Positions 1,824-49,815 of a stretch of DNA of 64,000 nucleotides are shown one piece after another. The notes under the pieces are model-generated. The model saw only the letters and a list, made by a program, of their open reading frames with translations, did no database searches and was not told the DNA's origin. The stretch is from Anadara kagoshimensis (Eukaryota > Mollusca > Bivalvia > Arcoida > Arcidae). The stretch is taken from assembly GCA_021292105.1 (NCBI GenBank), contig CM037870.1, forward strand, positions 11,705,353 to 11,769,352, in the 5' to 3' direction. Numbering within the stretch: position 1 is the stretch's first letter; the number at the start of each line of letters is the position of its first letter. The position numbers and the translations under genes are program-made.

Positions 1824-3455
1824 ATGGCAGCTAAATCAGTTTTAGTGATCGGATGTTTGTTGGTATTTCTTCTTATAAATCTAAATGGTAAGTTCATATT
1901 TTATCTTCCAAATTACCAAAGGTTCATAACAACCGGAGAAAGCCTTCACAACGATAAGCGTCAAGTGTTTATATGTAGACAAATAACATTGACCTGTCCG
2001 TTTGTCCATTACTTTAAATATTTATTATGAACGAATTTATTCATGTATAGGAAAAGCGCACGTGTTAATTACGTCTACATAAAGAGTAACACTAAACACG
2101 AACACTGTTTATGTATGGACTGCGAATCTTAATACTACCCATGTAATGGGTGGGTTCTCCTATATAGGCAAACAACATTGAACGTTTGACCTTTCATTAG
2201 GAATGTTCATATAGAATGGTCAACTCAATACATGGGTAGTGTTAGGATTTGCAGTTAATACATTATATACACATTGCCCATTATAAGTGTTCACATCTTG
2301 CAGGCGAAAAAACACGCATGATCACTATTACTTAATTTAACAATCCTAAATGAATATTTAAATCAAAGGTCAAGCCGACAGGTCAATGTTGTTTACCCAT
2401 ACCTGCCTATCTTACTTATTGTTTATTTGTTTCACAATGAAAACGTTGTAGTAGAGTTTTGTCCCCATACGAGAAATTTATACAACGAAGCAAGCTGCTT
2501 GGAAATAGATTGTTGATTCGGGGATATTACAGACTTATTAAAGCATCCAAAAACATTTGTGGCCGTCATTACAACATTGTTCATTATATGATTTCCCTGT
2601 AACCAAATTATCTTGGAGATTTATTCAACGTCCTTTTGTTTTGTTTTGGTTTTGATTCTCTATTTCGATTTCAATCAGGATGTTGAAGCTAGCTTATGAT
2701 TCACAGAAGTGCTTACTTACCCTTCCTAGTGGAAATTAACCAAATTTGCCATTTTCAAAGATTTTCCTTTGCTTTATGATTGCGGTTTAAACATGAGTCG
2801 GTAGGTTTCTTTTTTGATTGATATTCCGAGACACTTGTATAATAATATCGAGTATTTGGAAATACACGAATATCAATTAAAAACATACTAGTCATTGTGC
2901 AAATCACAATCCTAAAAGCAAAGAAAAAATTAAAAAACTGAAATTGCAAATTACATATTATACTAGCAAAGTAACGTGAAATTCTACCACCAGCGAAGTG
3001 AAGCAGTGCACTCTTGAAGGGTATGTACCTGCTATCGAGCTAGCGCTACACCCGCCACAACTATAATCTAAATTGAGAGTGAAACGAGCATGAAAAATTA
3101 ATAAAATAAACCAAATTCACGGCATACGTTAGTGAGGTACTTTTGTGCCATGGATAAAAATTTCGCGATAACTAAGTTTTTTATATAATGACGCACAGTA
3201 ATGATATGGCCCGTATACAATATCTCATATCTCAACGATAATTATTTTGTATTTGTAGATAGGACGAGGGTGGAAGGTGTATCCACACCGCCAGCAGGTA
3301 AACCTGGTGGAAGCCAAACTGGTAACAGCGCAGGAAAACCGTCAGGGCCAGGTAAAAAACCGGGAAATGGTAGTGTACAACTTCTTGCCGGAAAAGGAAC
3401 CTTTTTTGCTGTGGTAGGAGTCGGACTCTTCATATGTTCCTCTCTACGTTGGTAA
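1824..3455 (+). CDS. Gene 1: small secreted, tail-anchored Gly/Pro/Lys-rich protein (two coding exons)
   Basis: Coding exons 1824-1887 and 3259-3455, 86 aa. The ATG directly follows a ttttacag acceptor, so a 5' non-coding exon is implied. Exon 1 ends in phase 1 at a gtaagt donor; the intron ends in atttgtag and the split codon is Asp22. Residues 1-21 (MAAKSVLVIG...) form a signal peptide: one Lys, then an unbroken Val/Leu/Ile core. Residues 22-68 are rich in Gly, Pro, Ser and Lys (GKPGG, GKPSGPGKKPG), basic, and have no Cys. Residues 69-84 (TFFAVVGVGLFICSSL) are a hydrophobic tail ending in Arg-Trp, as in GPI-attachment signals or a single membrane tail. No known domain is recognised. Same leader length and intron phase as genes 2, 3, 4 and 6. 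Family membership is well supported; GPI anchoring and any function are inference. Confidence 0.72.
2105..2262. repeat. Small inverted-repeat element (gene 1 intron)
   Basis: ggactgcgaatcttaatact and agtgttaggatttgcagtta are imperfect complements, with cctttcattaggaatgttca between. Related pieces occur at 2345-2400, 39565-39655 and 50065-50160. Confidence 0.5.
2455..2820 (+). repeat. LINE-A fragment with coding remnant (gene 1 intron)
   Basis: Runs from the coding part (caacgaagcaagctgcttgg) through the 3' UTR to gagtcggtaggtttctttt. Lies in the intron of gene 1. Confidence 0.65.
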
Positions 3456-3787
3456 TATGACAACACAGTACAATAACAACAATAATAATGATGGCTCTAG
3501 TATGTTTTTTTAAAGTTCAAGACTGTGACGCATACTGATATTTAAATCATTATTAGACTGTTGAGGAAAATTTCTTGCAAATTAAATATACAATATATTT
3601 ATCAGGAACAGAACTTTTTTGCATGGTTTCGCGATAGGTGTACATAGACTATCATGATGATTACTTACAGATTATTATATTTATGTCTCCTTTTTAGGTT
3701 CTATTCAACATTTTGTTATAATTGTGATTCAAGTAATTTCGCGATTAAAAATTAACTTAAATAATATAGTTCGTTTTGTTTATATCA

Positions 3788-3935
3788 TTCAATCGAAAAC
3801 AAACATACCAACCCATCTTCAAACCAATATTCTAAAGCAGAGAGAAAATTTGAAGCTAGAAAATTAGGTTAAATAGGTTAAAACATGGGAACCTTTACCA
3901 GGGAAGTGAGGCTTCTTTTTAACCAGCTGCACTTT
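3788..3935 (-). repeat. LINE-A 3' fragment
   Basis: Starts aaacaaacataccaaccca and reaches accagggaagtgaggct. Confidence 0.55.
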
Positions 3936-3984
3936 TATTATGAGAATGTATATATAAATCCCCTTTTACCATTTTTCCGAATAA

Positions 3985-4430
3985 CTTATTTTCGGATCAT
4001 ACTGATCCATGTCCGAATAAGAATCCAAAAGCAAAGTAACCACTTTGGAACTGACAAGTTAGATAAGACACGTGAACATCCACCAGAAACGTGAGACCTG
4101 GTGCTCCGGAAGGGTAAGTATCTCCTGTTTAGCTATTTACACCCGCCAAGTGTGTAATCAAAATTGTGTGAATAAAAATGGAACTGTGGAACGTCAAATA
4201 TATCCAGGGCAATCATGGAGACAGAGACATCAAACTTATCAACAATACTGTGATGACGGTCAGAAAACTGTTTCGCCTTGTTAAGCCTAACTTGCAATAT
4301 CCCTAGGACAACAATTTATTTGCAAGCAGCCTGCTTTTTTTTGTTATACATTGTTCCCCGTATTGGGAACAATGTCTACCATTGCGTATTTATGGGAAAC
4401 AAATACACAATAAGCAGGAGCGTGGGCTAA
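3985..4430 (-). repeat. LINE-A fragment, near consensus
   Basis: Covers the 3' UTR and about 200 bp of coding remnant (atatccagggcaatcatgga to the tatttatgggaaacaaat region). Same orientation as the preceding copy. Confidence 0.75.
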
Positions 4431-4434
4431 AATA

Positions 4435-5824: not shown

Positions 5825-5827
<3 letters not shown>

Positions 5828-5864
<37 letters not shown>
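5828..5864 (+). repeat. (ATA)n microsatellite
   Basis: About 12 aat/ata triplets. Confidence 0.95.
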
Positions 5865-8147: not shown

Positions 8148-8871
8148 GCAAAAAAATGGTTTAAAGCCAGTTTTGACGTCACAGTAACTTCACAATAAAT
8201 TGGGTTTTAAATGAAAAAGACGTTAAGTAAAAGCTAAACATTCAAGCCTTAAGGAGCTACTAATGAAATAGGTTTAACTACTTAAGACCAAACATAGAAG
8301 GTTTCAAGACACATAGGAAAGGATTTAATATACAAAGGTATCTGTTGAATGTAAAATAAGAAATATTTGCAACATTTGGATTTAATATTAGTTTTGAAAT
8401 ATAAAATATATAATGAATTTAGTTATGAAACAAACATGATTTTTACAAATCTTCTGAATGATCTTTGACATGAAATTAATTGGATGATATTTAGCCATTA
8501 TATTTATTAATTTTCCAAAAAAGGAGATTTAGCAGCTATATATCCATATCTATTATATTTTTATTCTGTGTATTTCCTTCAAATGTCAAAATTGTGGGCT
8601 GTAAATATTAAGACATTTTGTCATTTTTGTTTATTTTGGAACGTTTTGCGTGTCCACTTTTGAAAACTATTTTTAAAAATATGTTTAATATATTAGTAAA
8701 TCGTTAAGACTTCAGCTTAATTCAAATATCATAACTCTTGAAAATTAAGACGAATCAAAATAATTACGGAAAAAGGAATTAGATTATTTTTATAACCAGT
8801 TTTATAAAAGATTTCACGCGTACATAAAAAGTAAGTTGCGAGATTAAATAACTTACTAATTTTGGTTTCAT

Positions 8872-8937
8872 AATTTTGGTCCAAGCACTACTGATGAAGA
8901 ATTGTATTCCGAAACGGCCGTCTAGTGCTGTAAAATT
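8872..8937 (+). ncRNA. Hammerhead ribozyme motif, nearly intact (gene 2 5' intron)
   Basis: Stem I AGCACTA/TAGTGCT is perfect, with outer AATTTT/AAAATT pairing across an internal loop. Core CTGATGA (8891-8897), GAAA (8911-8914) and cleavage triplet GTC (8920-8922) are all present. Stem II is GAAT/ATTC, but its closing base is A instead of G, giving an A-C mismatch. Stem III is a minimal AC/GU around GGCC. Type I layout. It ends 48 nt before the gene 2 ATG exon. Confidence 0.72.
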
Positions 8938-8985
8938 AAAACTGGTATAATATGTAATTACTACATTTTTTGGTTTTATTTTCAG

Positions 8986-10799
8986 ATGGCGAGTAAACTG
9001 GTACTTGTTGTTACATTCTTGGTTGTCCTCATCAATATAAATATGAAAGGTAAGTATTTATTATCACTAAACATGTTTCAATTCAACAGCACTAAATGCC
9101 CGTTTCTAAATACAATTCCTTATAAGTAGTGCTCTTCTGTGGAAATTGAAGTATTTTTAAAATGATGAAATTAGAAAAATAGAAAGATGAATTTTTTTTT
9201 AACAAATCAACCATGGGGCAATAGTTTGAAGATAAAGCATATATAGATTTTTGAGGAATTTTAAAAGCAGATATTTTGGATTAACAATGTTGATAAATGG
9301 TTAACATGTATAAATCTCTATATGTTTTGTTAACGATTCTTAAAGACAATATCCTTTCAAAATCTCTTGATTTCATCCAGGAAATGCTCTTTATCAGACC
9401 AATAATTTAAAACACTGATTTGTTAAGAAGTTTTTAAATTTAAGTGATTCAAACGTCCTAACTTCCTTGGTTGAGGTTCATGTGGCTAACCTAACGTCAA
9501 ACTTTAAATTTTTTACTTTGCCTCTAGATTTTAATTCGGACATTGATTAGTTTGTTTGTTTTTGATATATTCAAAAATAATGAGCAAATAAAAATAATAT
9601 TAAAGAAAATATCTTTATCTGAGCAATTTCAAAGCTGAAATTAGAAACTGAACAAAGCAAGGAACGATACAAAAGGTTAAAAAATATATATCACGAAGTA
9701 TAATTTTCCTAACTTTGGCATCCACTGATATGTTTCTCTTCTAAACATTCTATTTATTTTCTAATCATTTGTAAAAACACATTTGAGATTAGATAAACGT
9801 TCAAATAGAAATAGAAAAAGTTCGACAAGGGAACCAAGCTTATGTCATTTCACTAATATCGTAGTGACCAGTTTTGGAATGGCGAAGGACCCAAAAAGAG
9901 AATCTAGCTAAGACACGAATTTAATTACATGGAAATGACCCGATTGGGGAAGGGAATCAATAGTTGGGGGTAAGCGGCACTTCGATCTGTAAATTCACGC
10001 TTTTCATACGCCTTTAAACAAACTAACTGGCATACATGTGTTGTTTATTAAACCATGAATGTCTTGTTTTGCTGACGGATGTGATCGGATTATTTGTGTT
10101 CAACGCAATGTGGTATTTTTATACATACTATGCCTTTTTTGAGAGCTCTTTCTGTTCTACTTATTATCCATACAACTTGGTAAAATACGTGGTAATATTT
10201 GTAGTGACAGTAAGTGATCTTTACCTAAACAATACAGTTTCATTTTGAAATTAAGAATACACTTTCACTTATGCATATACATATTTATCTGGTGGTTTAT
10301 TATAAAACACCTGTACTTTGTAGGTTGCGACACTGCAACAACAGCCCCTGTTGGCGGCGGTCCTATAAGTGTCGGTGGTGGTGGTGGCGCTGGCGGAACA
10401 GGGAGTGGAGGTAGCGGAACCAGTGGTGGAGGAGGTAGCGGAACCAGTGGCGGAGGAGGTACCGGAACAAGTGGTGGAGGAGGTACCGGAACCAGTGGCG
10501 GAGGAGGTAGCGGAACCAGTGGCGGAGGAGGTACCGGAACAAGTGGTGGAGGAGGTACAGGAACAAATGGTGGAGGAGGTACCGGAACAAGTGGTGGAGG
10601 AGGAACAGGAACAAACGGTGGCGGTGTTGGTGGCGGAACCAGTGGTGGAGGAAGCGGAACCAGCGGTGGAGGAGGTAGCGGAACAAGTGGTGGTGGAGGT
10701 AGTGGAACCGGCAATGGAAAAAACAATGGAGCAGCTTTATCAAGCAACATTTTATTGGTTGTAATTGTTGCACTGTGTATCCTGATAATTAAGCAGTAA
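8986..10799 (+). CDS. Gene 2: secreted glycine-rich repeat protein with hydrophobic C-terminal tail
   Basis: Coding exons 8986-9049 and 10324-10799, 179 aa. The ATG abuts a ttttcag acceptor. Exon 1 is 64 nt, phase 1, with a gtaagt donor; the second exon starts after ctttgtag and the split codon is Gly22. Residues 1-21 (MASKLVLVVTFLVVL...) form the signal peptide, close to gene 1. After a short Cys-Asp-Thr-rich lead-in, residues about 46-155 are an imperfect 8-residue repeat of the type GGGG(S/T)GT(S/N), 24 nt per unit. The last 17 residues (ILLVVIVALCILIIKQ) are a hydrophobic tail. The Gly repeat recalls structural or silk-like secreted proteins (shell, byssus, mucus), but composition alone does not prove a role. 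Proline-rich and Val/Glu-rich readings of the other frames are by-products of the repeat. Confidence 0.74.
9455..9568 (+). repeat. LINE-A 3' end (gene 2 intron)
   Basis: ttccttggttgaggttcatg through gacattgattagtttgtttg. In the second intron of gene 2. Confidence 0.6.
10396..10710 (+). repeat. 24-nt coding tandem repeat of gene 2
   Basis: About 13 imperfect units such as agtggtggaggaggtaccgg, in frame and encoding the Gly-rich octapeptide. Far more GC-rich than its surroundings. Confidence 0.9.
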
Positions 10800-17803: not shown

Positions 17804-20800
17804 ATGCATTTAAGAATTTTATCTTTGAATTGCCAAGGTCTAGGGGATAATTTTAAGAGAAAAACGTTTTTCAATATTTGGCAACACTTGACTACAATAT
17901 ATATTGCTTACAGGACACGCATTTTACTTCTGAAAATCAAGCATCTGTTGAAAGGGAATGGGGGTTCTCTTGTATTTTCAATTCCTATAGGTCAAATGCT
18001 AGGGGAGTGGCTGTATTTTTCAAAAATAATTTTGAATTTAAGCTACTTAAATCAAATTGTGACAATGATAATCTAATTTTACTCGAACTTCTGGTTGATG
18101 AAAGGAAAATAACACTCGTAAACCTCTATGGACCAAATAAAGATACTCCCGCCTTTTATAAAATGGTTTTTGATAAAATTGTTGAATTCGAAAATACCGA
18201 CTTTATAATCTGTGGCGATTTCAATCTTTGCTTAAATCCCGACCTAGACTCATTTAATTACATCAATATTAACAATCCAAATGCAAGACAGCTTGTGCTA
18301 GATTTCATTCAAGAAAATAATTGTATAGATGCTTTTCGAGAAAATAACCCAGATTTAAAACGTTATACTTGGAGAGAAGAAAAATCCAGTGAAACAAGCT
18401 AGATTAGATATGTTTATTCTAAGTGAAACTTATTCAACTAACAATTATACAACATTTATAAAATCTGGATATCGAACGGATCATTCTATAGTACAACTGC
18501 AAATAACATTTAATGACTACAAAAAGGGAAGGGGTTGTGGAAATTTAATAACTCCCTGTTACATGATAAACAATATATAGAAACAATTCAAATTCTTATC
18601 TCAGAAATAAAAAGACAATATGCACTTCCAGTTTATAATATAGACAATATTCTTAATATTTCAAACGAATCTATAGCCTTTTCGATTAATGATCAATTAT
18701 TCTTAGAAACTTTATTAATGGAAATAAGGGGCAAAACCATCTCATATGCTAGTTTTAAAAAGAAGCAAAATGAAAAAACGGAAACAATTTTGATAAGTGA
18801 AATAAAACAACTCGAAGATCAATTAAATGATAATAATTTCAATAAGTTAGAGGAAAAAAAGGAAGTGTTACAAAATCTTAGAAAAGACAAAATTAAAAGT
18901 TCTTTGGTTAGATCGAGGGTTAAATGGATAATGGAGGGGGAAAAACCAACAAAGTATTTTTGCAGTCTAGAAACTAAAAATTTTCAAAATAAAATAATAC
19001 CTAGAATAGAGAAAGAAAATGGAAACATTATAACAGATCAAAAAGACATCTTACAGGAAATAGAATATTTTTATAAAAACCTTTATTCGGAAAACTCAAA
19101 CATAATAGACGTAGATTTAAATAATTATATTGGATCGTGTAATTTTAAAAAATTGAATAAAGTTGAATCTGATCGTTTGGAAGGGGTTATAAGTAATAGG
19201 GAAGCTTTTGAAACGTTGAAAAAATGAAAAATGACAAAAGTCCTGGGTCAGATGGGTTTACTGTAGAATTCTTTAAAATGTTTTGGAAAGATATTGGGGA
19301 TTTTGTAGTAAGGTCTCTAAATTATGGTTATGAAAATGGGAAACTCTCAGTAACTCAGCGGGAAGGGATAATAACTTGTATACCAAAAGAGGGAAAACCA
19401 AAACATCTCTTAAAAAATTGGAGGCCAATTACACTCTTAAATACAGTTTATAAAATAGGGTCTGGAGTAATAGCAAATAGAATAAAACCGTTATTGGAAA
19501 ACATTATTGGCATAGAACAAACTGGTTTCATTTCTGGGAGGTATATTGGGGAAAACACAAGGCTTATATATGATATAATGCAATATACGGAAGATAAAAA
19601 TATTCCCGGTCAACTCCTATTAGTAGATTTCGAAAAAGCTTTTGATTCAATAAGTTGGTCATTTTTACATAAAGTCTTAAACCTATTTAATTTTGGTTCG
19701 TCTATACATAAATGGATTAACACATTTTATAAAGACATAAAGTCTGCAGTAACGCAGGGTGGACATTTAACTTCCTTTTTTGACATAAAAAGAGGTTGTA
19801 GGCAAGGGGACCCATTATCACCTTATCTTTTTCTATTATGCGTTGAAATTCTAGCTATAAAAATTCGAAACAACAAAGATATAAAGGGAATTAAAACTAA
19901 TAATAAAGAAGTTAAAATATCGTTATTTGCTGATGACACAAGTCTTATTCTTGATGGCTCAGAACAATCTCTAAGACAAGCGCTTAATGAATTAAATCTT
20001 TTTGCGAAAATTTCGGGTCTTAAAATTAATTTAGAAAAAACACAGATAATTTGGATAGGTAGTAAGATATATAGTGATGTTAAATTATGTAGAGAATTTA
20101 ATCAGCATTGGGGGGATACTAGGTTCACGTTACTTGGGATGATATTTGATGTTGACTTGCAAAAAATGCCTCATATAAACTTTGGTAAAAAAGTGAATAA
20201 TATCAAATCACAGATAAATTTTTGGAAAAAACAAAAACTTACACCTATTGGGAAAATCACAATTATTAAAACTCTGCTCATTGCTCAGTTAAATCACCTA
20301 TTTATTTCATTGCCAAATCCAAGCCAAAACTTTATTAATGAACTAAATACAATTTTTTATAACTTTATTTGGAATGGGGTTACTCATAGAATAAAAAAAG
20401 ATGTTATTGTAAAAGAATATGAAGAAGGTGGTTTAAAAATGATCGATTTGATCCCATATATAAATGCTTTAAAAACAACTTGGATTAAAAAATATTGCAT
20501 ACAAAGGGTTCCTGGTGTAATATCTTAGAATGTTACATAGATACAGAGAGATTTTTTAGCGTAGGAAATGAATTTATCGTAAAGAACATGAAATACTTTA
20601 AAAATGACTTCTGGACAGATGTGTTTAAGGCTTGGATACTATTGACAAACAATATTAAAAAACTAAGAATATTCAAAAACGCAGCTGAAAGTTATCTTTG
20701 GTATAATAGTGATATTATTATTGGAAATAGTTGTATTTACATTAAGAAATTATACGAAAAAGGGGTAATATTTATCAATGATCTACTTGATACTGATGGG

Positions 20801-21583
20801 CAATTTTTAAGCCTGCAAGATTTTATTCGGAAATATAACTACAACATACATTATCTTCACTATACTGGAATAATTGAATCGGTAAAATATATGCTGAGAA
20901 AACACAATGAGTATTGTCTGTCTAAATCTGAAACTCCTTTCATTCCTAACAATCTTAAGATACTATTTAAAAATGAAAAAGGCTCGAGGGACATGTATAA
21001 AATCTTGAAGCAAAATAATATCTTACCTACTTCACGGCAAAAATGGCAAAGCATTTTTGATAATATTAATTTAACTGAAAATGATTGGAAACAAATATAC
21101 AAAATAATTCACCTGACTACTCTAAATTCTAAAATACAATGGTTCCAATACAGAATAATCCATAATATAATTGCTACAAACTCTTTTTTGTTTAAAATAG
21201 GTATTAAAACAGAGGCTCTGTGTAGTTTTTGTAAACAGGAAAGTGAAACAGTTATTCATCTCTTTTGGGAATGCGACATAGTACAACAATTTTTAGAAGA
21301 CTTAGAAAACTATTTTTTATCGAATGGTATTTTGTTAGATCTAACAAAAATGAGTTTAATTTTTGGATATTTCAGATCGTTTAATAGAGTTAAAAATTTT
21401 ATCCTTATGCATGTAAAATATTACATTTATAAAACCCGTTGTACTGGTAAAAAACTGTCTCTTGAAAAGTTTAAATATATTTTAAAAGATGTATATTACA
21501 TCGAAAAAGAAATAGCAATAGGCAAAAATAAGTTAGAAAATTTTCAAAGAGAATGGCAACACATTCACCGTATTGTTATATAG
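17804..21583 (+). pseudogene. LINE ORF2-like endonuclease/reverse transcriptase, five frameshifts
   Basis: Read through five frame changes (near 17878, 18390, 18540, 19215 and 20500), the protein has an APE-type endonuclease (LNCQGLG, LQDTHF, VNLYGPN, CGDFN, TDHSIV) followed by reverse transcriptase motifs: SPGSDG (about 19239), NWRPITLLN, QTGFISGRYIGENT, VDFEKAFDSISW, GCRQGDPLSP and the catalytic FADD at 19926-19937. A C-terminal Cys/His motif (CSFC...HLFWEC, about 21218-21275) is typical of L1/Tx1 elements. Each break is a small indel, with motifs intact on both sides, so this is a fairly young dead copy. It would have made the enzyme for target-primed reverse transcription. Clade assignment is by motif style only. 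Confidence 0.88.
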
Positions 21584-23198: not shown

Positions 23199-24466
23199 AT
23201 GGCATCGCACACCGTTCTCCTTTTGTCAGGCATCCTATTCTTGGTGGCTATCAGCATGACTGGTAAGTTTGATAAAGTAATCCATTGAGTTTTAACTTCA
23301 CGGTTAGATGTGAACTCTTGACTGATAACAGGAACTAAAGACGTTTTACCAAGATATACAACTATTTACATTTTAAAAAAGAACCATAGCGATATGAATA
23401 TTTTCTCGCTTCTGTAAAACATGGGAAATTCCTATTGCCAATTATAAGTCAACAACGGTTAAATTTGCTTTCTTATACTTATTTTGGCTTTTCCCTGTTT
23501 AGTTTATTTCAATTGTCAAAGTTCCCAAGCTAAATATTTTGATTTATAAATTAATAATACCAAACATATTCGTTGTTAAACTAAGCTTTATTTGTAATCC
23601 AGTTGACAGTATATTGAAAACCTATGGAACAACATTAAGTATATTGCAAGCACATGCTTACCAAAAGTTTTATAGTCGTTATTATTGTTAATAAGTTTGA
23701 TGTCCTTGTATCCAAAATTACTCTGGATATATTTGCCGTCCCAATAGTTCCATGTTTCTTTCATTCTCTATTTTAATTGCACACGTGTCGGTTATAGCTA
23801 GCTAAATAGGAGATGCTTACCCTTTTCGAACACCTGGCATCACTTCCACGGTGGAAGTTCACGTGTTTGACTTAACATGCGAATTTAGATTTTTGTTTAC
23901 TTTGTTCAAGGATAATGACTTGGTCGTAGACTGGTTTGTTTGTAATGGATTAATTTGAAGGTAAATCTAACACAAAGTAAAGTAAAAATTATTGAACACA
24001 CTTTCGAAAAAACCATCAGGCACTTGCAAACATATATAGTAGTAATCTGAACTTTTTGTTGCCAAAATCTATAAAAATAAGAGCTTTTTCTATTATTTCA
24101 TAGGTATTTTTTTATGTAATTGATAGCATCAATAATATAAAATGTTCAGTGTTGTAGCAATCAGAAAGAGAAAATCCGAGAAATACCTAATGTGAGATAA
24201 ATTATTGAATTTTAGAGTCTGCAACAACTGCAAATACTGGACCATCTGTCGCTATTCAGACTATCAAGACTACCAAGTTAGGGCCTAACCCTAAGACGAC
24301 TGTTTCACCTGGCCCTAGTTCTGGAACTAGAACAACCAGCTCTGGCTCAAATGGTAGTGGAAATGACGGATCTAAATCTGGCAAAAACAGTGCTGAAAGC
24401 TGCTGTGGAAATCTCACACTTTTTATAATTTTATGCATATGTGTAGCGTTGATAAAAAATATATAA
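23199..24466 (+). CDS. Gene 3: secreted Thr/Ser/Gly-rich mucin-like protein with hydrophobic tail
   Basis: Coding exons 23199-23262 and 24216-24466, 104 aa. The ATG abuts a ttttttcag acceptor; exon 1 is 64 nt, phase 1, donor gtaagt; the acceptor is gaattttag and the split codon is Glu22. The leader MASHTVLLLSGILFLVAISM differs from gene 4 at two of the first 21 residues. The body (22-83) is Thr/Ser/Gly/Pro-rich with Lys, suited to O-glycosylation. A Cys-Cys pair at 84-85 precedes the hydrophobic tail 88-101 (LTLFIILCICVALI), which ends KNI. The start of exon 2 (ESAT) and the tail are shared with gene 4, while the middle is not. The second exon has no internal ATG near its start, so it appears only when the splice is modelled. 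The 5' intron appears to hold a 4-kb LINE. Confidence 0.72.
23665..23960 (+). repeat. LINE-A fragment (gene 3 intron)
   Basis: ttttatagtcgttattattg through ggtggaagttcacgtgtttg. In the second intron of gene 3. Confidence 0.65.
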
Positions 24467-26480: not shown

Positions 26481-26929
26481 TGCCAGATGCACAGACATCA
26501 TTGACACAGTTCCATACACTGGATTTAGACAGCCAAAAATATTTTCGACTTCCCAATGTTCAGCGGATAAAGCCAACTAGTAAACTTTGATGGCAACTTT
26601 ATTGTCAAGGATCTGACACGCATTTGGTATCTCGCTTTAGCGCTAGTTCCAACTGGCTGCATAAATAAAGTAAATAAGTAAATGTCTCTTTCAGCATATG
26701 GAAATTTTCAAGCTATTGTCATTGACCATCATTAAAAGTTTTTTGACAATATCCTCACACCATACTTCTAATCTGGGTCTTCTATACACATAATTTGTCT
26801 CGTTATATCTAGAATCGAGTCCATACTTAGGAAGCCTATCCATTGATGTTTATAATATATTTCGTATTATTGTCAGAAATATACTATAATTGTCTAAATT
26901 TCCTGCAAGTTAAAATTTGAAATTTCTCA

Positions 26930-27130
26930 AAAACTAAGGTATACTCCCTCATGCAAAGTATTTCCTTAGCTTAATTTGGTAAAATATATTTTTGTCCTTT
27001 TAATTTGGTAGCTTTTCAGCATCTTCAAAATAATTTTGGTTTCATAATTTTGGTCCAAGCACTACTGATGAGGAATTGTATTCCGAAACGGCCGTCTACT
27101 GCTGTAAAATTAAAACTGGTATAATATGTA
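26930..27130 (+). mobile_element. Retrozyme-like repeat carrying a hammerhead
   Basis: The block from caaaaactaaggtat through gtatttccttagc to the hammerhead and aaaactggtataat also occurs upstream of the gene 1 hammerhead (about 1525-1710), upstream of gene 2 (8855-8960, shorter), and reversed in the gene 4 intron (about 31309-31520). A dispersed non-coding repeat with a terminal hammerhead fits the known retrozyme class of non-autonomous elements. Borders are approximate. Confidence 0.5.
27046..27111 (+). ncRNA. Hammerhead ribozyme motif, intact core (free-standing copy)
   Basis: All core elements are present: CTGATGA (27065-27071), stem II GGAAT-TGT-ATTCC (27072-27084), GAAA (27085-27088), a short stem III around GGCC and the cleavage triplet GTC (27094-27096). 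Stem I AGCACTA/TACTGCT has one C-C mismatch; the outer AATTTT/AAAATT helix is kept. The best candidate for self-cleavage in the window, probably weak as a monomer because stem III is tiny, as known for animal retrozyme-type hammerheads. Confidence 0.75.
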
Positions 27131-27225
27131 ATACTATTCTTCCACGTGAAAGCAAAGCATATATGCTTTTGCATACATACGTTTTGCATGCTATGTAATG
27201 TTACATATGAAAGCCAACATCACCG

Positions 27226-27424
27226 CATGATCCGGGCTTTAGATGTAAGCAAACCTCGCCGCATGATCCGGATTTCAGATGTAAGCAAACATCATCGCAT
27301 GATTCGGGCTTTAGATGTAAGCAAATCTCGCCGCATGATCCGGATTTCAGATGTAAGCAAACATCACCGCATGATTCGGGCTTTAGATGTAAGCAAATCT
27401 CGCCGCATGATCTAGGCTTTAGAC
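27226..27424 (+). repeat. 36-bp minisatellite with a 72-bp higher-order unit
   Basis: Five full units and one partial, each catgatccgg-type start, then tagatgtaagcaaa. Two variants (gggctttag and ggatttcag) alternate, giving a 72-bp dimer. The frame stays open (RMIRALDVSKHH type) because 36 is a multiple of 3; no reason to call it a gene. Confidence 0.9.
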
Positions 27425-29010: not shown

Positions 29011-30030
29011 GTCTGAATATTAACAAAACTTTCGAAAATAGTGCTTAAACTGAAATTTGTCTGCAAATTTAAATAATTTCTGCTCTATTTTCTGATGTCA
29101 GTGGAATCAAAGGACTGAACGTTTATAACATGCCCATGGAGAGGACGCCATTCACACTAAGTTTAATTTTTCTTCATTTTCTTGCTAAAAGGAATTTAAA
29201 AAATAACAATTTAAAATGGTACAATTAGAATTGGAGATTTTTACAACACACCAAATAGAACTAAAATACGCACATAAAGATTTCAATTGATCTATCACTA
29301 ACACATATTGAAAAAAAAGTTTTTCTACAGTGTGAAAACGTGTTGATATATTAGTCATCTACAGTTGAAATGTGTTAGTTGCTATATATTTGGATTTATA
29401 TCAAATAGATTATGCGAACATCATCAAAGTACACAAGTTGATTTGTATTACAGTTTAGTAACTGGAAATGAAATTTGATAATAAAGTTAAGAACAATTTT
29501 AGGGAATGTTTATAACGAATATAAATGGAACATACTTATTAAAACTTAGTTTAGATCACTACAATCGTTTTAATCTTATATAAGAAGGTACATTCAAACC
29601 ATCAGTACTTTATGTAACTATAGAAACATTTCAACTTTACTGGTGTAATCAAACAATTTTTATCCAATAAATCAATCAAAATACCGTATACGTAATAAAT
29701 AAACGAAGTCAAATAATGTATACTAGAAACCCTATGCAATTCAGCAATTTTTTACTGCTAACACTATCCATAAATTTAACAATACAATATATTTAATAAG
29801 CTTCTTAAGTTTCTCTTTGATTTTCGACAGGAGAGTTTTTATTTCAAATTAATATGACAAAACCATAGTACATAATTTTCAGGTTAAGAGTTTTTTTTTT
29901 TTTTTTTGAAAGTGTATTTCGACCTTTTTTTAAATAAAAAACACGATTCCACATAGTTCGTCCTGATAAAAGTATGTACGATGTGTTGGATGTACAAAAA
30001 CGAAACGTCAGTTCAAAAAAGTTGAATCAG
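29011..30030. other. Intergenic before gene 4 promoter
   Basis: AT-rich, with a T16 run at 29892; no gene or element recognised. Confidence 0.45.
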
Positions 30031-30123
30031 CCAATGAAAACTGTTTATCAATTTTCCATATATTATATATTTTGAAATCTGACTTAGTTATTTCAATTTT
30101 CAATTTTCATTGCTTTTCTCAAG
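30031..30123 (+). promoter_or_regulatory. Candidate promoter and non-coding exon 1 of gene 4
   Basis: CCAATGAAAA at 30031, then TATA-like tatattatatat at 30059-30070, then a probable first exon from about 30090 to 30123 ending ctcaag/gtgagt. The resulting 5' intron (30124-30696) ends at the acceptor abutting the ATG. Confidence 0.48.
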
Positions 30124-30696: not shown

Positions 30697-33224
30697 ATGG
30701 CATCGAGCGCTGTTCTCCTGTTGTCAGGTATCTTATTTTTGGTAGCGATTAGCATGACTGGTAAGTGATAAGTAATCTAATGAATCGTAGATTCGATGAA
30801 TTTTGACTACTTTTACAAAATGATTTCTTTTGAACAAGATTTAAAATTAACTTCATAAAAAACATATTGATCAAATCATATTTAAAAGCAAAGTAAAACT
30901 TGGATATGTATTTAATTATACGAATTTCAACTTGAGAAGCGCGACTAGGTTGTCTGGAAGGGTGAACCGTTTAGCTAGCCACATCCGCCACGTGTGAAAC
31001 TAAAATTCGGAATAAAAAGATGATAACAATATGATACTTACAATATATCTAGGATAATGAATACTTTCAGGCATCGCTTAAATGCCGAGCTTAAAATCGA
31101 TAGTTATTTAAAGTCGTAAAACCCTTTTGGCTATTTTGTACAGGCAGTGGTCGGTTTTTCTTTTCGTTGTCAGATTTTTATTTGCTTTGGTATTTCCATT
31201 TAAAAAGGTCACAAATATGTTAAAGCATTCGTTAAAAATGCAATAATTGTCAGAAAATGGCATTTAAAAATGACCAGTAAAACTGTATCCAATTACATAT
31301 CATAACAGTGTTATTTTTACAGCACTAGAACTGGTTGGTGGTTTTGGAATAGGTCAAATAATCAGTAGTGTTTAGACCAAAATTGCGAAACCAAAATTTG
31401 TCAAGAGGTTAAAATTATATCCAAAATACCAAAATACCAAAATATATCACCAACAGCTAGATAAGGAAATGCCTCGTATGAGGAAGAATACCTTAGTTTT
31501 TGAGGAATTTAAATAGCAGCATATTTAAACAATAGTATCCAAGGAGTATAAGAAAAGACAATATTTGACTATCCAACATCATGTTGACATACGACTTTTC
31601 AACATCATACAGTTAACATTATTCGTAAACATATGTTTGTTGATCACCTTGTATTAAGTATAAATTATAAAGTTTGTTTTCAAAATGGACAAGAAAGTAA
31701 TTAATATCAATAAAATATACGAGGGCCGTTCAAAAAGTCTTGTCCTTCATAATAAAAACACAAATTAAGACGTTTTATTTATGATATTAAGACCCTGGAT
31801 CCATTTTCTAAATACATTCGCATTTTCTTTTTTGGATATACCATTGAGAAACTGATGAATTGCTGAACCTATCGATGAGCGAGATCTGTATCGACGACCA
31901 GAAAGGTGTTTCTTAAGTTTAGAAAAGAGATAAAAGTCACACGGTGAAAGATTAGGTGAATAAGGTGGATGAGGTAAAACAACAACACGTTCCTTGTACA
32001 AAAATTCAGTCACCAACTTAAATTTGTGAGCAGGAGCATTGTCATGGAGTAACCGAATATCTCGAATTCCTGACTTTGGTCTTTTCTTTTCATAATTTTT
32101 CTTTCATTTTCTTAAGAATTTTATTTTTATAAATGTTTTCCGTGATACCTTTGCCTTAAAGGATGGGAATTTGGGCAACTATGTCGTTACTTTTGAAAAA
32201 TATAGCATAAAGAACTTTCTTTGTGCGTTGAGTGCGCCTTGCAATTTCAGGTCGTTTTCCTTTTCTGGTTAGCCATATTTTATTATTTATCTTTTTATGT
32301 GGCTTAAAGTAATATACCCGTGTTTCGTCACCTGTAACTATATCAACCAGACGCCTGCTGTTACATTTACCATATATTTTCAGCAGATTTTTCAGTTTTT
32401 ATCTGAGAATGAAATGTACGGCCCCCATTGATAAACCAACGACTTCAGCTATCTGTTTAACAGTCAACCTTCCATCCCTATTGACCAGTTTTTGAATTTC
32501 TGTAATGTTTTCTTTGGTGCATGCTGTTTTTGGTCCTCCAGAACGGGCCTTATCAGAAATGTCGTTAACACCATTTTTAAATTTACGTATCTAGCGTGAG
32601 ATGGACCTATATGACAGCTTTTGCTCACCAAAAACATCTTGCATTTCAACGAATGTTTGTTTGGGCGATTTAACGAGTTTTGCACAGGCTTTCATGAAGC
32701 TTCCCATTTCAATATTGTTTTTACCTGTCATGTCCGTCATTTTCCAAGCAGTGTAACGAGTGTTATGTTGAAAATATGGCAAGAAAACTAATTCTTTTGC
32801 ATATAAAAATGTTCCACGTGTTTGGGAATGAACTCAGTCACCCGTGACAAGTGACAATATAATAAATTACGGTGTTTTATTTACGGTTTACAGGAAGGGA
32901 CAAGACTTTTTGAACGACCCTCGTAAACGATTACAAAAAAATAATTCTAAAGCTATGCCAAAATTAACACACTATTGAATTTTAGAGTCTGCAACTCAAG
33001 CACCTATAACTCAAGGACCTGCAACTCAAGCACCTGCAACTCAAGCACCTGCAACTCAAGCACCTGCAAATTCAGCATCTGTAACTCAAGCACCTGTTGA
33101 ATCTACATCTACAGCAAACACTGGGGCTGGCTCTGGAAAAAATGAAGGTTCTACAAGCTCTCTGAGATATCTGACACTTTTCATAATGTTATGCATTAGT
33201 TTAGTATTGATGCAACATGTATAA
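30697..33224 (+). CDS. Gene 4: secreted ATQAP-repeat mucin-like protein with hydrophobic tail
   Basis: Coding exons 30697-30760 and 32986-33224, 100 aa. The ATG abuts a tttttcag acceptor; exon 1 is 64 nt, phase 1, donor gtaagt; the acceptor is gaattttag, as in gene 3. The leader is MASSAVLLLSGILFLVAISM. The body begins ESATQAP and carries a pentapeptide repeat (ATQAP and variants) over residues 24-59, then a Ser/Thr/Gly-rich stretch, then the tail LTLFIMLCISLVLMQHV (84-100). Closest relative of gene 3: near-identical leader, splice sites, tail and part of the 3' UTR, with an unrelated repeat in the middle. The 2225-nt intron holds a 1204-bp mariner; without it the intron would be about 1.0 kb, like that of gene 3. 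A CCAAT/TATA pair and a donor at 30124 suggest the promoter and first exon. Confidence 0.74.
30865..31018 (-). repeat. LINE-A 3' fragment, diverged (gene 4 intron)
   Basis: aacatattgatcaaatcata to cgccacgtgtgaaactaaaa. Confidence 0.5.
31315..31385 (-). ncRNA. Hammerhead ribozyme motif, decayed copy (gene 4 intron)
   Basis: Read on the minus strand: AATTTTGGTCTAAACACTA, then CTGATTA (core G lost), a stem II remnant ending ATTCC, AAAA in place of GAAA, and TAGTGCTGTAAAA closing stem I. Stem III is scrambled. Clearly the same repeat as the other three copies, and dead. Confidence 0.5.
31720..32923 (-). mobile_element. mariner DNA transposon, 1204 bp, flanked by TA
   Basis: Terminal inverted repeats: CGAGGGCCGTTCAAAAAGTC at the left and its near-perfect complement at the right (gactttttgaacgaccctcg), about 27 bp, each bordered by TA (31718-31719, 32924-32925). 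Size, TIR and TA duplication are standard for mariner. Inserted within the intron of gene 4, in the opposite orientation. Confidence 0.93.
31765..32740 (-). pseudogene. mariner transposase (D,D34D), frameshifted
   Basis: Transposase on the minus strand, about 325 codons from ATG at 32740 (MTDMTGKNN) to the stop at 31765. The N-terminal helix-turn-helix part (FVEMQDVFGEQKLSYRSISR) is interrupted by a stop and frame changes. The first catalytic Asp is in TGDETRV (about 32325), the second in HDNAPAH, the third in YSPNLSPCDF; exactly 34 residues lie between the last two, the mariner signature. The C-terminal part (31765-32055) is in one frame. Inactive because of breaks in the first two thirds. 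Confidence 0.88.
32996..33090 (+). repeat. 15-bp coding repeats of gene 4
   Basis: gcaactcaagcacct and variants, about six units, encoding ATQAP. Confidence 0.92.
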
Positions 33225-40709: not shown

Positions 40710-41720
40710 ATGATTTCCAAAACCATTTTTGCCTTATTCCTGACGACAGTTGTCCAAACAAGTAAGTATCACTATACTTACACGAACCTAGAGAAATTGT
40801 AGCATCGGAGCACCCGGTCTTACTTCCGTGACGGAAGTTCACATGTTTAACCTGACTTAAGTTTTTACTTTGCTTCTGGATTGTGATTTGGACATTGATT
40901 GTTATGTTTGTTTTTTGATTGTATCATTGTGTTATCATACCTTCCGACATTCTCGTTATACGGAAAATTTGCGATATTGAGCTTGAACTGGAAAAGCTGA
41001 TGCATTGTCATTTCCTTTAAAATGACGAGTAGGAAGCCTATGCTTATTTTCCTTAATTAATCTGGATTTCATTTTTTCAACCAATTTTTCTGTAGCATTC
41101 AATATGAAAGTAAAGTGAAAAATGTTAACCCCTGAGTTTTATTATATTTGTTTTATTACACATAATATCTATACTCAATTTGTGAGCACTGAATTTTGAT
41201 TGGTATTGGTATCTAACACGATAATGCTACCCTGGAACACGCAAAATGCTCATTTAGAAAGTGGATTTTGATCAACAGAATATGATTTAAATGAACGTTT
41301 ATTCTTACAGTTTAAATATAAACAAAAAGTCATACAAATACATAATTACAACAGAAATACCTAAAGTTATAGTATATTCAAATTTGCACTTAATCCCTAA
41401 AAATATATTATCAATGTTTTTTTATTTCAGATATTACTATGTCAACGGATCTATTTGCTGGTTTTGGTGTAGTTGTTGGTACAACTCAAAGCCCTACTAC
41501 CGTCGGTGGTATTCCTGGAGGTTCAGGTGGTGACGTTACTACAGTGTTTGACACTGTTGGACAAGCAAATGGTGGTGGTGGACAAACAAGTAGAAATGGT
41601 GGAAATGGTGGAAATGGACAAAACGACAATGGACGTTACAACACTGCCACAATGTCTTTTGGAAATATAAACGTTTTACTCCTTTTTACAACATTTGCAA
41701 TATTCGCAAAATACTTGTGA
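40710..41720 (+). CDS. Gene 5: secreted Gly/Asn-rich protein with hydrophobic tail
   Basis: Coding exons 40710-40761 and 41431-41720, 113 aa. The ATG abuts a attttacag acceptor. The leader exon is shorter (52 nt, 17 codons plus one base) but keeps phase 1 and a gtaagt donor; the acceptor is tttatttcag and the split codon makes Asn18. The leader is MISKTIFALFLTTVVQT. Asn18-Ile-Thr is a potential N-glycosylation site at the mature N terminus. The body is Gly/Val/Thr-rich then Gly/Asn/Gln-rich (GGNGGNGQNDNG), and the tail INVLLLFTTFAIFAKYL (97-113) is hydrophobic. The most divergent member, placed in the family by gene structure and architecture rather than by sequence identity. An exon-internal ATG at 41439 could be mistaken for the start, but it would drop the signal peptide. 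Confidence 0.66.
40800..40922 (+). repeat. LINE-A 3' end (gene 5 intron)
   Basis: catcggagcacccggtctta to tgattgttatgtttgttttt. Confidence 0.7.
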
Positions 41721-42429: not shown

Positions 42430-42867
42430 AAATAATTCTTATTTATCTATCCTAGTGAGCTTTAAAATAAAGACACGACTGATTCCTCAAGTTCTGCTTC
42501 ATATTTAGACTTATACCTGAATTATGACGCACAGGAAAGGCTACATTTGAAACTTTATGATAAACGTGATGACTTCAATTTTTCTATTGTCAACTTTCCT
42601 TTCTTATGCAGCAATATACCTGCTTCTCCTGCTTATGGTGTATTTGTTTCCCAACTAATACGCTATGGTAGAGCTTGTTACCACTACGGGGACTTTGTAC
42701 AACGAATTCGAAGTAGGCTGCTTGCAAATAAATTGTTGACTCAGGGATATTGCAAGTCTAGGCTTATCAAGGCCCTCAAAAAGTTTTATGGCCGTCATCA
42801 CAGTATTGTTGATAAGTTTGATGTCTCTGTGTCCAGGATTGCCTTGGATATATTTGACGTTTCATAG
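42430..42867 (+). pseudogene. C-terminal fragment of a LINE-A reverse-transcriptase protein
   Basis: One frame reads YPSEL-stop-NKDTTDSSSSASYLDLYL, then KLYDKRDDFNFSIVNFPFL, SPAYGVFVSQLIRYGRACYH and LIKALKKFYGRHHSIV. I recognise this (YDKRDDF...YGVxxSQLIRYxRA) as the segment downstream of the RT domain in retroelement proteins common in bivalves and cnidarians. One internal stop near 42463. No RT catalytic motif is in the window for this family. The similar reading at 24865-24960 (LIRYGKACFHYENF) confirms the frame in a second copy. Confidence 0.72.
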
Positions 42868-46944: not shown

Positions 46945-47108
46945 TAAAAAACAAACATACTGGTCCATGTCCAAATCACACTGCCAAAAGCAAAATTAAA
47001 GTTTTGAAACTGACAAATAAGGTTTAACATGTTGAACTTCTATCAGGGGAGCAAGGCCGGATGCGCAGCCTGTTTAGCTAGCTAAAACAGTCACGTGTAT
47101 AATTTTCG
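46945..47108 (-). repeat. LINE-A 3' fragment
   Basis: aaaacaaacatactggtcca to tagctaaaacagtcacgtgt. Confidence 0.6.
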
Positions 47109-47375
47109 AGGAACTACCGAGCTATCTTACTTTTGTAACAGGTTGCATTTACATGTATTTCAAAAACATTTGGATGCATCTTGCCTTGCAACCTAAACCT
47201 AAATGTTTACGCTTAAATTCAATTTTTTAAATATCGGTTCATGCTTCAGAAAAATGCTTTAACAGTCAAGAGATTAATTTAATAAAAATCTGATATCAGT
47301 TCATTGCAATAATAATAAAAAAATTTAGATAGTTCAACAATAACCACTGCTCAAATATCACTGGATTTTATTTAA

Positions 47376-47664
47376 GGATCCGTGTGCGGTAATATATTGG
47401 ACAGTTTACTTTTCGTAATCTGCGCTCCCTATGTCAGAATTCTTGCCCTTTACAACCAGCTATCTTCAAAAGTCACTTAAAGCAGACATTTACTCGATGC
47501 AAGGATCCAAGTGCGGTAGTATATTGGACAAGTCTACTTTTCGTAATTTGCGATCCCTGAATGTCAGAATCGTTGCCCTCTACAATATCCTTTCTTCAAA
47601 AGTCACTGAATGCATACATCATGAACTTCATGCAAGGACCAAGAACGGTAGCATACATGTCTAA
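47376..47664 (+). repeat. Tandem repeat, about 130-bp unit, 2.2 copies
   Basis: ggatccgtgtgcggtaatat (47376), ggatccaagtgcggtagtat (47503) and ggaccaagaacggtagcata (47634) start successive units sharing cttttcgtaat and cttcaaaagtcact. Confidence 0.8.
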
Positions 47665-48369
47665 GTAGTTTGACGACTTACAATAATTATGCATAGTATT
47701 ATCTCAGTCAAGTTTGCATTTCTTAACATGCGCTTTTTTAGTGTACGGGGTATTGCCTATTTTTATTTCATTCAATTTCATCTCTGTGTTATTTTTTTCT
47801 AAAATGAATTCTAAAATCATGGTTCATATAGTTAAATAAATTTGTATAACAATGTTAGTTATAGTATGTTCCTGGCGTCTTAATATGCGATACATGCAGT
47901 AAGTTAACTCCAAATGGGGCGATGCGAAGATGCGAAGCTGTTATCAAAAATAAAATCTTCGAATTAATAGTTACGCGAACAGTCTAGCGTACACTATTTT
48001 AGTTTCCAATGACAACCGTCAAGATCGTTATTGGTACATGTTCACAATATGAGAGTAATAATAACAGTAAATGATGATTTCGGACCAATCATTACACAGA
48101 ATTTTTAGAGGTGGAAAAATAGTTTTCTTCACGTAGGATCCACAACTTAACCCTATAACCCAAAATGAGATTTATAAAGCCTGTAAATAATGATTTCTGA
48201 ATATTCAGAGGTGGTAAAATAATTTTTTTGCGCAGGATTGGTATCACTTTTGATGCCTTATTTATTCAGATATTATTGTTTTATGATTTATAAATATTAA
48301 AATATTTTTGATAGATTTATTAAATATGTCTACAAAATATTTTATAATACAAGGTTAAATTATACATAT

Positions 48370-48460
48370 CCAATGAAAATGTATCAGTAGGATATAAAAT
48401 ATATATTAAATTTCAAATCGTTGCCATTTATATTCTGTAGCTTTCTCAAAAGACAAAAAG
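48370..48460 (+). promoter_or_regulatory. Candidate promoter and non-coding exon 1 of gene 6
   Basis: CCAATGAAAA at 48370, atataaaata from 48392, and a likely first exon from about 48422 to 48460 ending acaaaaag/gtgagc. The intron 48461-48813 (353 nt) ends at the ATG-abutting acceptor. Same layout as gene 4, including a shared ctttctcaa-like string in the exon. Confidence 0.46.
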
Positions 48461-48813
48461 GTGAGCAAACTTAATACTCTATTGCAAAAACTCCATTGAT
48501 ATTTTTTCATTCTATGTTCTATTGATGCATCTAAGCTAAATTTGTACTGCATTTTTGATTGGCATAATTAATCATTTCAGTTAGTATTTATAAAACATTT
48601 AAAGAGTTTGGTTTTGAAAAAAAATTTGATAATGCAAAACTATATTTTTTATATACGGAAGAAAATGTTTCTTTGGAGAATTTCGTTATTACTTATATTC
48701 ATAAATTCCTGTACACACCTGATGCGACTTCATTTTATTTTCAATTTGATTTTTAAAACCTACACATCTTCATATCCAGTATTAGTAAATAATTTTACTT
48801 TTTATTTTTCTAG

Positions 48814-49815
48814 ATGACATCAAAACCAATATTAGTTACCCTGTGTATACTGTTCGTTTTGACTTTATTATCAAATAGTAAGTATTAGAATATTATATGT
48901 ATGCAGGCTGGTGTACATGCACGTGTTTGTTCGTGCATACATACGAATGTGTGTTTAAGTTGAATCGATTCTTCAGAAAATTCTATTTTGCAAATTTATT
49001 GCTCTTAGCTAGATTTTTAAGGATAATGATAAAGATTTGTAAAGTATGATGGCTGTTTTTCTTTCGGATCTTTTAGGTAGACTTTTAAACATCTATAACA
49101 TTTGCATTTGGCTAATATTACTGTTTTATAAATCCCATCAAATAAAATTTGCAAATTAAAAATGTTTTACATTTTTTTGTTTTGTTTTACCACTTAATTG
49201 GCAAATGGAAACAACCGCTTTTTAAAATTGGTTTGATAATAAACGATTGACCAGGAAAAAAACAATAATGCTACTTTCTAAGCTTTCGGTAAAAATGCCA
49301 ACATTTATGTTAGCTGTGAGATGTAATAATGCTATTTCAACGGCATATTGTTCATTAGGTTTTAAATACTCGTTTCAGGAACAGATTCAGCATCAAGTAC
49401 AATAGCACCAGAAACATCGAGCCCTACAACCAATGCTCCGGCTCCAGCGGCATCAAGTACAATAGCACCAGAAATATCGAGCCCTACAACCAATGCTCCG
49501 ACTCCAGCGGCATCAAGTACAATAGCACCAGAAATATCGAACCCTACAACCAATGCTCCGACTCCAGAGGCAACTGCTGATCCACCAGCTGCGACCACTT
49601 CAAGTGGCGGTGATCCAACTACAAGTGTTGAGACCTCAGCGCCAGGTGTTGATTTATCCACTGTAAGCGGTAGTGAAGGTGACAATAGCACCGGAACCAG
49701 CAACAGCGATGATACCAATAAATATGATGACAATAGCGCATCCGTACCTTCTGGGAGCATCACATGGGGTTTCGTTGTGCTTGTAATTTTCATTTTTATA
49801 CAAATAATTATGTAA
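48814..49815 (+). CDS. Gene 6: secreted Ser/Thr/Pro-rich mucin-like protein with three 20-residue repeats
   Basis: Coding exons 48814-48877 and 49379-49815, 166 aa. The ATG abuts a tttttctag acceptor; exon 1 is 64 nt, phase 1, donor gtaagt; the acceptor is cgtttcag and the split codon is Arg22. The leader is MTSKPILVTLCILFVLTLLS. Asn21-Arg-Thr spans the exon junction and could be an N-glycosylation site if kept after cleavage. Residues 26-85 are three near-identical 20-residue repeats (ASSTIAPEISSPTTNAPTPA type), 60 bp each. Then comes a Thr/Ser/Gly/Asp-rich acidic stretch with Asn-Ser-Thr, and the tail ITWGFVVLVIFIFIQIIM (149-166). Composition is mucin-like. A 195-codon reading on the other strand is a shadow of the repeat. 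The intron (501 nt) is the shortest of the set and free of visible insertions. Confidence 0.74.
49390..49569 (+). repeat. Three 60-bp coding repeats of gene 6
   Basis: Units 49390-49449, 49450-49509 and 49510-49569, each starting gcatcaagtacaatagcacc, with only a few substitutions between them. Confidence 0.95.

Follow-up and report, generated by a model that had tools for sequence, protein, structure and literature searches.

According to PMC5636173, the MASP proteins of Trypanosoma cruzi belong to a multigene family of about 1400 genes and pseudogenes in which a conserved signal peptide and GPI signal lie around a strikingly variable mature middle. CD24 is described, in PMC9990587, as a heavily glycosylated, GPI-anchored molecule with a mature peptide of 30 residues. 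The SpTransformer (Sp185/333) genes of the sea urchin are small, clustered and built of two exons, the first encoding a fairly conserved hydrophobic leader and the second repeat-bearing and highly diverse (PMC5491942); the word GPI is absent from the main text of that paper. Myticalins and modiocalins, as portrayed in PMC5577615 and PMC12294457, are hypervariable low-complexity peptides of mussels; in their genes the first exon is 5' UTR only, exon 2 opens with the ATG and an intron lies in phase 1, and the myticalin genes are clustered.

Here we describe six neighbouring small genes on the + strand at 1824–49815 of a window of 64,000 nucleotides (the whole stretch of Anadara kagoshimensis DNA that was analysed), each with two coding exons recognised by open frames and splice signals (Table 1). 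The gene set has a common frame consisting of a leader, a phase-1 junction, a low-complexity middle and a GPI-type tail. Judging from the sequence, the six probably form a family that arose by local duplication and encodes small GPI-anchored cell-surface peptides. The best reading of the comparison with known systems is that the family would work like CD24 or the trypanosome MASPs, a likeness of design that is set by descriptions. As described, MASPs and the present genes both carry sorting signals at the two ends and vary in the middle, although there are six genes here vs. about 1400 and an intron separates leader from body here; the introns and transposon content of this DNA also point to an animal, unlike the trypanosomatid MASP and TcMUC families. 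The likeness to CD24, again by description, lies in a short GPI-anchored peptide (predicted in our case), and CD52 can presumably be placed alongside it. To our knowledge, neither CD24 nor CD52 has repeat arrays or a cluster of divergent copies. SpTransformer genes are described as mosaics built from shared elements; in the present genes there is hardly any alignment between middles, even in the closest pair.

Table 1. Exons of the six genes (G1–G6) and candidate non-coding first exons, in window coordinates.
Feature	Coordinates	Strand	Remarks
G1 leader exon	1824..1887	+	64 nt, phase-1 end
G1 body exon	3259..3455	+	basic Gly/Pro middle, GPI-type tail; protein 86 aa
G2 leader exon	8986..9049	+	64 nt
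G2 body exon	10324..10799	+	Gly-rich octapeptide (24-bp) repeats 10407-10709, GPI-type tail; protein 179 aa
G3 leader exon	23199..23262	+	64 nt
G3 body exon	24216..24466	+	Thr/Ser-rich middle, GPI-type tail; protein 104 aa
G4 candidate non-coding first exon	30090..30123	+	start guessed; donor AAG/GTGAGT (slash marks the splice point); prediction only
G4 leader exon	30697..30760	+	64 nt
G4 body exon	32986..33224	+	ATQAP (15-bp) repeats 32989-33096, GPI-type tail; protein 100 aa
G5 leader exon	40710..40761	+	52 nt
G5 body exon	41431..41720	+	Gly/Asn-rich middle, short 9-bp array 41593-41617, GPI-type tail; protein 113 aa
G6 candidate non-coding first exon	48425..48460	+	start guessed; donor AAG/GTGAGC; prediction only
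G6 leader exon	48814..48877	+	64 nt
G6 body exon	49379..49815	+	20-residue (60-bp) Ser/Thr/Pro repeats 49390-49572, acidic, GPI-type tail; protein 166 aa

The six-gene array is confirmed as a real observation: a preliminary description had placed six genes here on one strand, all six were found, and scans for leaders and, separately, for bodies converge on the identical set. The first leader scan, run over both strands of the window, gave 7 matches on the + strand and 4 on the − strand and found five of the six genes, missing the 52-nt leader of G5. A second scan, which also required AG before the ATG and whose limits were set with the genes already known, gave 9 matches on + and 0 on −, namely the six genes and three further positions (26236, 53005 and 58451) with pyrimidine tracts that look poor by eye; the corresponding first-order Markov null (200 sequences) has a mean of 0.47 matches per 64-kb strand and a maximum of 4. 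The body scan, with criteria (open frame, low-complexity middle, hydrophobic end) devised with the bodies already known, returned at its strict setting only the six genes on + and 0 on − (null 0 in 60 simulated strands), at a looser setting 6 and 1 (null mean 0.17) and at the loosest setting given 8 and 1 (null mean 0.65).

The leader exons had been called constant, which is an overstatement: five are 64 nt long and that of G5 52 nt, all six end in phase 1, and their sequence varies. Among the 64-nt leaders, G3 and G4 are identical at 53/64 positions and the other nine pairs at 25–36/64. In the window, DNA matches of the leader exons at E≤1e-6, which might betray leader copies lacking a body, are confined to that of G3 with G4. 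Leader similarity reaches p<0.01 in 4 of 15 pairs and stays at p≥0.1 in all five pairs with G5 (no correction for multiple testing). The fact that most pairwise similarities of leaders and tails are non-significant, with G5 standing apart, is what one would see if these were unrelated small secreted genes, or decayed ones, alike only through signal-peptide and GPI-tail composition. We give this explanation very little credence, since the genes lie on one strand with one exon order, one phase and intact frames in all six, five have a leader of 64 nt, and G2, G3 and G4 are similar at both ends. In every gene an AG stands immediately before the leader ATG, as it does for 46 of the 1228 ATGs of the + strand overall, and each gene would therefore be expected to begin with a non-coding exon; predicted first exons are convincing for two of the six. 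The G4 candidate has a TATA-like box 60 nt before its donor, with a weaker alternative donor at 29587 that also has TATA-like boxes upstream, and the G6 candidate has such boxes 61, 68, 172 and 288 nt before its donor.

The one pair for which a test of constraint was feasible is G3/G4. Over the leader there are 8 synonymous changes in 15.8 sites vs. 3 non-synonymous in 47.2 (dN/dS ~0.08), and these sequence counts point clearly to purifying selection on the leader; over the last 18 codons there are 4 synonymous changes in 11.2 sites vs. 9 non-synonymous in 42.8 (dN/dS ~0.5), a ratio indicating mild constraint only. The two genes match over 23 nt at the body start (13 of intron and 10 of body) and align again in the tails and the beginning of the 3' flank; the middle, which hardly aligns, has been rebuilt.

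All six proteins combine a hydrophobic leader with a GPI-type tail (by hydropathy and a rule of thumb, applied without a negative control), so that the hydrophobic tail reported earlier is present throughout and the proposal of secreted, surface-tethered products is well supported by this anatomy. The tails contain ~13–18 hydrophobic residues, a length that would also suit short single-pass membrane proteins without GPI that keep the tail as a transmembrane helix. With a cytosolic part of no more than a few residues, and with GPI attachment sites acceptable by the rule of thumb in all six, such proteins seem decidedly unlikely. The motif N-x-[AGS] lies 23–28 residues from the C-terminus in every gene, which occurred in a fraction of 0.00015 of 20,000 segment shuffles, for a motif that was picked post hoc and that single genes match in 6–46% of shuffles; the rule of thumb permits several sites per gene and ranks Ser, not Asn, first in G4 and G6. 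Similarity over the last 32 residues reaches p=0.0005, the lowest value the test can give, in four of 15 pairs (G2-G3, G2-G4, G3-G4 and G3-G6), and over the last 18 it reaches p<0.01 in only two (G3-G4 and G2-G3; G2-G4 0.09 and G3-G6 0.29, uncorrected). By these comparisons, G2, G3 and G4 form a group with similar C-terminal parts.

The hydrophobic stretch ends ~5 residues or less from the stop codon with small residues before it in all six, as in a GPI signal, and this bears on the suggestion that the products are secreted as structural or mucus components (of shell, byssus or mucin gel) and that their hydrophobic C-terminus is a mere sorting or assembly element. Gly-rich and Ser/Thr/Pro-rich low-complexity middles do resemble those of matrix proteins in composition, but the form of the tail and predicted mature parts of just ~37–134 residues make this suggestion unlikely. 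The roles in mucus, shell or byssus matrix raised in the preliminary description are likewise disfavoured, because a membrane tether argues against a loose matrix.

The middles, earlier said to differ completely, are quite different and often rich in repeats, but the bodies as a whole have features in common: a [DE][ST]A[ST] motif occurs within the first six body residues of four of the six genes (by eye) and the last 32 residues of G2, G3 and G4 are similar. In-frame arrays have units of 24 bp in G2, 15 bp in G4, 60 bp in G6 and 9 bp in G5 (2.8 copies), all multiples of three, and none is listed for G1 or G3. Diversification by repeat turnover, as proposed before, is thus favoured by G2, G4, G6, the short G5 array and the G3/G4 comparison, with G1 and G3 lacking a listed array. 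Pro, Thr and Ser make up 47% of the predicted mature part in G3, 40% in G4 and 51% in G6, vs. 35% in G1 (basic), 32% in G2 (57% Gly) and 23% in G5 (28% Gly). Pro/Thr/Ser-rich tandem repeats are found in G4 and G6, G3 is rich without a listed array, and G1, G2 and G5 have none. By this measure the earlier interpretation, well supported as to secretion and tethering, is only partly supported as to a mucin-like nature, which fits G3, G4 and G6 and fails for G1, G2 and G5.

The basic middles of G1 and G3 (net charge +6 and +4) also bring to mind the possibility that the genes encode precursors of antimicrobial peptides and are relatives of the mussel myticalins. Going by PMC5577615 and PMC12294457, the likeness would lie in the 5'-UTR-only first exon (here a prediction, convincing in two of six), the ATG at the start of the next exon, a phase-1 intron, clustering and low-complexity hypervariable peptides. 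Such a relationship is very improbable. In myticalins the signal and the mature peptide are both encoded by exon 2, whereas leader and body are in separate exons here, with the phase-1 intron directly after the leader and not inside a C-terminal extension; myticalins have a dibasic site and an anionic extension, whereas these genes have a hydrophobic tail, Lys-Arg or Arg-Arg in none of the six and one Lys-Lys in G1. The net charge is zero or negative in four of the six middles, and the signal-peptide consensus published for myticalins is, by eye, unlike these leaders. Prohormone precursors were rejected as well, since dibasic sites are absent beyond the G1 Lys-Lys.

For a family of GPI-anchored surface peptides, we infer splicing, GPI attachment, glycosylation, cell type and role as follows. 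The leader exon would supply a signal peptide, probably cut a few residues into the body (near [DE][ST]A[ST] in four of six), and the last 24–28 residues would probably be removed and a GPI anchor put in place, perhaps at the Asn before x-[AGS]. What remains would be a tethered peptide of ~37–134 residues that probably adopts no fold by itself, with Ser/Thr/Pro-rich members acting as O-glycan scaffolds and the others as flexible Gly-rich or basic spacers. Both ends would be constrained because the sorting signals sit there, and the middle would be free to change, mostly via in-frame gain, loss and swap of short repeats. Their likely role would be to determine how charged and how thick the glycocalyx of epithelial or blood cells is and which sugars it displays. 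A bolder proposal, which we regard as tentative and rather doubtful, is that a mollusc has evolved a hypervariable GPI-anchored coat family of its own, with fixed ends and a middle rebuildable from any short repeat. It would serve to evade pathogens, recognise self or filter microbes, would probably vary from one individual to another, and would be the animal parallel, in design, to the MASP coat of trypanosomes.

A protein search with G3 gave 8 candidates and one with an alignment of G1, G3, G4 and G5 gave 1601, with 0 at E≤10 in both cases; G2 and G6 were excluded from the alignment to avoid low-complexity words, and neither served as a lone query. A control query, a LINE reverse transcriptase, matched 2554 proteins at E≤1e-10 among 8000 scored, showing that the searched database contains at least some animal sequence, and the empty searches are weak evidence for an absence of relatives. 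The scan of bacterial and archaeal genome contigs with G3 gave 589 pattern matches and 0 confirmed, none of the six proteins matches Pfam at the curated cut-off (below it G4 has five matches, the best being DUF1180 at 17.3 bits vs. 27.7, G6 two and the others none), and the Rfam and tRNA scans were empty. Such genes may be easily overlooked since they are small, are divided between exons and have middles on which similarity searches fail. The empty protein searches agree with this without proving it. If transcripts and anchoring are confirmed, the locus would be a compact animal case in which sorting signals are kept and the displayed part is replaced wholesale, and a good place for measuring the turnover of low-complexity coat peptides.

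The regions upstream of G1 and G2 have 105 aligned positions in common (84% identical). A common promoter was considered and rejected; the element recurs at ~26880–27160 and, inverted, at ~31291–31513, and with these further copies a dispersed repeat is the likelier explanation.

The six small plus-strand genes (G1 to G6), each comprising a leader exon with a predicted signal peptide and a body exon with a low-complexity middle and a hydrophobic GPI-type tail, are listed in the table with the other features of the window (64 kb, 32.8% G+C, zero N). When no AG was demanded before the ATG, a leader scan matched at seven places on the plus strand and four on the minus strand, with five of the six genes among them. 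The stricter scan, which required an ATG preceded by AG, a hydrophobic stretch and a phase-1 donor, returned nine plus-strand matches, six of them G1 to G6, and none on the minus strand, as compared to a mean of 0.47 per strand (maximum 4) in 200 Markov sequences; for 64-nt leaders the window holds six matches, including a spurious one at 58451, and the Markov sequences a mean of 0.04 (maximum 1). A body scan blind to the leaders recovers exactly the six genes, with none in 60 second-order simulated strands, and on relaxation adds one and then three extra matches. Because both scans were built with the genes already known, these nulls are generous to the finding. Every body (6/6) sits just downstream of a leader, an adjacency that neither scan requires.

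Features of the window (plus-strand genes: leader / body exons; Pro+Thr+Ser computed on the predicted mature part)
Feature	Position	Strand	Structure	Middle; Pro+Thr+Ser
G1	1824-1887 / 3259-3455	+	intron 1371 nt; 86 residues	basic Gly/Pro; 35%
G2	8986-9049 / 10324-10799	+	intron 1274 nt; 179 residues	Gly octapeptide array; 32%
G3	23199-23262 / 24216-24466	+	intron 953 nt; 104 residues	Thr/Ser-rich; 47%
G4	30697-30760 / 32986-33224	+	intron 2225 nt; 100 residues	ATQAP repeats; 40%
G5	40710-40761 / 41431-41720	+	intron 669 nt; 113 residues	Gly/Asn-rich, short 9-bp array; 23%
G6	48814-48877 / 49379-49815	+	intron 501 nt; 166 residues	three 20-residue Ser/Thr/Pro repeats, acidic stretch; 51%
Insertion in G4 intron	31718-32925		broken minus-strand frames; inverted ends of 28 nt (96% complementary), each with TA on its outer side
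LINE-type element	about 17857-21583		endonuclease, reverse transcriptase, zf-RVT domains over several frames
Dispersed element, four copies	1497-1723, 8855-8963, about 26880-27160, about 31291-31513 (inverted)
36-bp tandem repeat	27207-27423		six copies, directly after the third dispersed-element copy
Open frame	42466-42867		133 aa, no Pfam match
166-bp tandem repeat	63297-64000		4.3 copies, reaching window end

The leader exon had been described as constant, which holds for its length and frame and fails for its sequence: among the ten pairs of the five 64-nt leaders, G3/G4 are identical at 53 of 64 positions and the rest at 25 to 36 of 64. By shuffling, leader proteins are similar at uncorrected p<0.01 in 4 of 15 pairs (G1-G2, G2-G3, G2-G4 and G3-G4), with G1-G6 next (p=0.023, likewise uncorrected) and G5 below p=0.1 in none of its five. 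Most differences between the G3 and G4 leaders are silent, with 8 synonymous changes in 15.8 sites and 3 non-synonymous changes in 47.2, indicating that in this pair the exon is translated and constrained. Since AG immediately precedes the ATG in all six genes, a non-coding first exon is expected upstream of each leader. Strong candidate donors for it lie at 30123 (G4, which has a second, weaker candidate at 29587) and 48460 (G6), each preceded at about 60-68 nt by a TATA-like box; the candidates of G2, G3 and G5 have no such box at that distance, and the same upstream scan found no candidate for G1.

At the other end, in all six genes no more than about five residues separate the hydrophobic stretch from the stop, and each protein carries an N-x-[AGS] triplet 23-28 residues before its C-terminus. 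Segment shuffling yields the triplet in all six at a frequency of 0.00015 in 20,000 trials (6 to 46% for single genes), for a motif picked after inspection of the tails. A rule of thumb permits more than one GPI attachment site in each protein, and in G4 and G6 ranks a Ser above the Asn of the triplet. Over the last 32 residues p<0.01 is reached in 5 of 15 pairs, with G2-G3, G2-G4, G3-G4 and G3-G6 at p=0.0005, the floor of the test; the last 18 alone reach p<0.01 for G3-G4 and G2-G3 only. Common descent of the tail is therefore well supported within G2, G3 and G4, and may or may not extend to G1, G5 and G6. G3 and G4 resemble each other most in leader and tail; they also share exactly the final 13 nt of the intron and the initial 10 nt of the body, and their tails align together with the start of the 3' flank. 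Because these ends align and the middle hardly does, the middle appears to be the part that turns over, the clearest sign of this coming from that one pair.

The sequence itself establishes only the gene frame and the constraint in G3/G4; secretion, anchoring, display and coat or spacer roles we infer from the anatomy. Most likely, the leader exon would direct secretion, a GPI anchor would replace the tail, and the mature peptide on display would measure about 37-134 residues. Thr/Ser/Pro-rich peptides may be O-glycosylated and serve as a coat, and Gly-rich and basic ones may act as spacers or charge carriers.

This design is the same as that of T. cruzi MASPs, where signal peptide and GPI signal are conserved and the middle is variable (PMC5636173). 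The genes are like CD24 in size (PMC9990587) and recall the two-exon layout of sea urchin SpTransformer genes (PMC5491942). Mussel myticalins share the intron before the ATG, the phase-1 intron, the clustering and hypervariable low-complexity peptides, but their dibasic site and anionic extension (PMC5577615, PMC12294457) were both sought in the six proteins and are absent. In Mytilus CRP-I genes, too, the first exon is purely 5'-UTR; the coding sequence spans exons 2-4, and exon 4 encodes a cysteine-rich peptide (PMC10138031), unlike the middles here, which hold at most two cysteines. Among the titles and abstract openings listed from openly licensed literature linking mussel, Mytilus, mollusc or bivalve to GPI together with mucin, threonine or low complexity, no such family appeared.

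Self-matches at E<=1e-6 cover 25% of the window. Genes that require splicing, the LINE-type element and short interspersed repeats give it an animal character. The G4-intron insertion resembles a mariner-type DNA transposon; with it subtracted, the intron is close to that of G3 in length. Names are attached to 13 of the 120 matches listed for the LINE reverse transcriptase: seven reverse transcriptases from symbiont metagenome bins (of Lucinoma, of Bathyaust..., Candidatus Thiodiazotropha endolucinida), the hosts being clams, one match from the limpet Patella caerulea, and five hypothetical proteins. These relatives point to molluscs and make a bivalve source likely, though unproven. The first two copies of the dispersed element share an orientation and closely precede the leaders of G1 and G2, respectively. 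An open minus-strand frame in the 166-bp repeat has no Pfam match. Part of the 133-aa open frame (42491-42700, where the comparison ended) recurs elsewhere in the window, and an apparent long imperfect palindrome was seen by eye at about 61130-61570.
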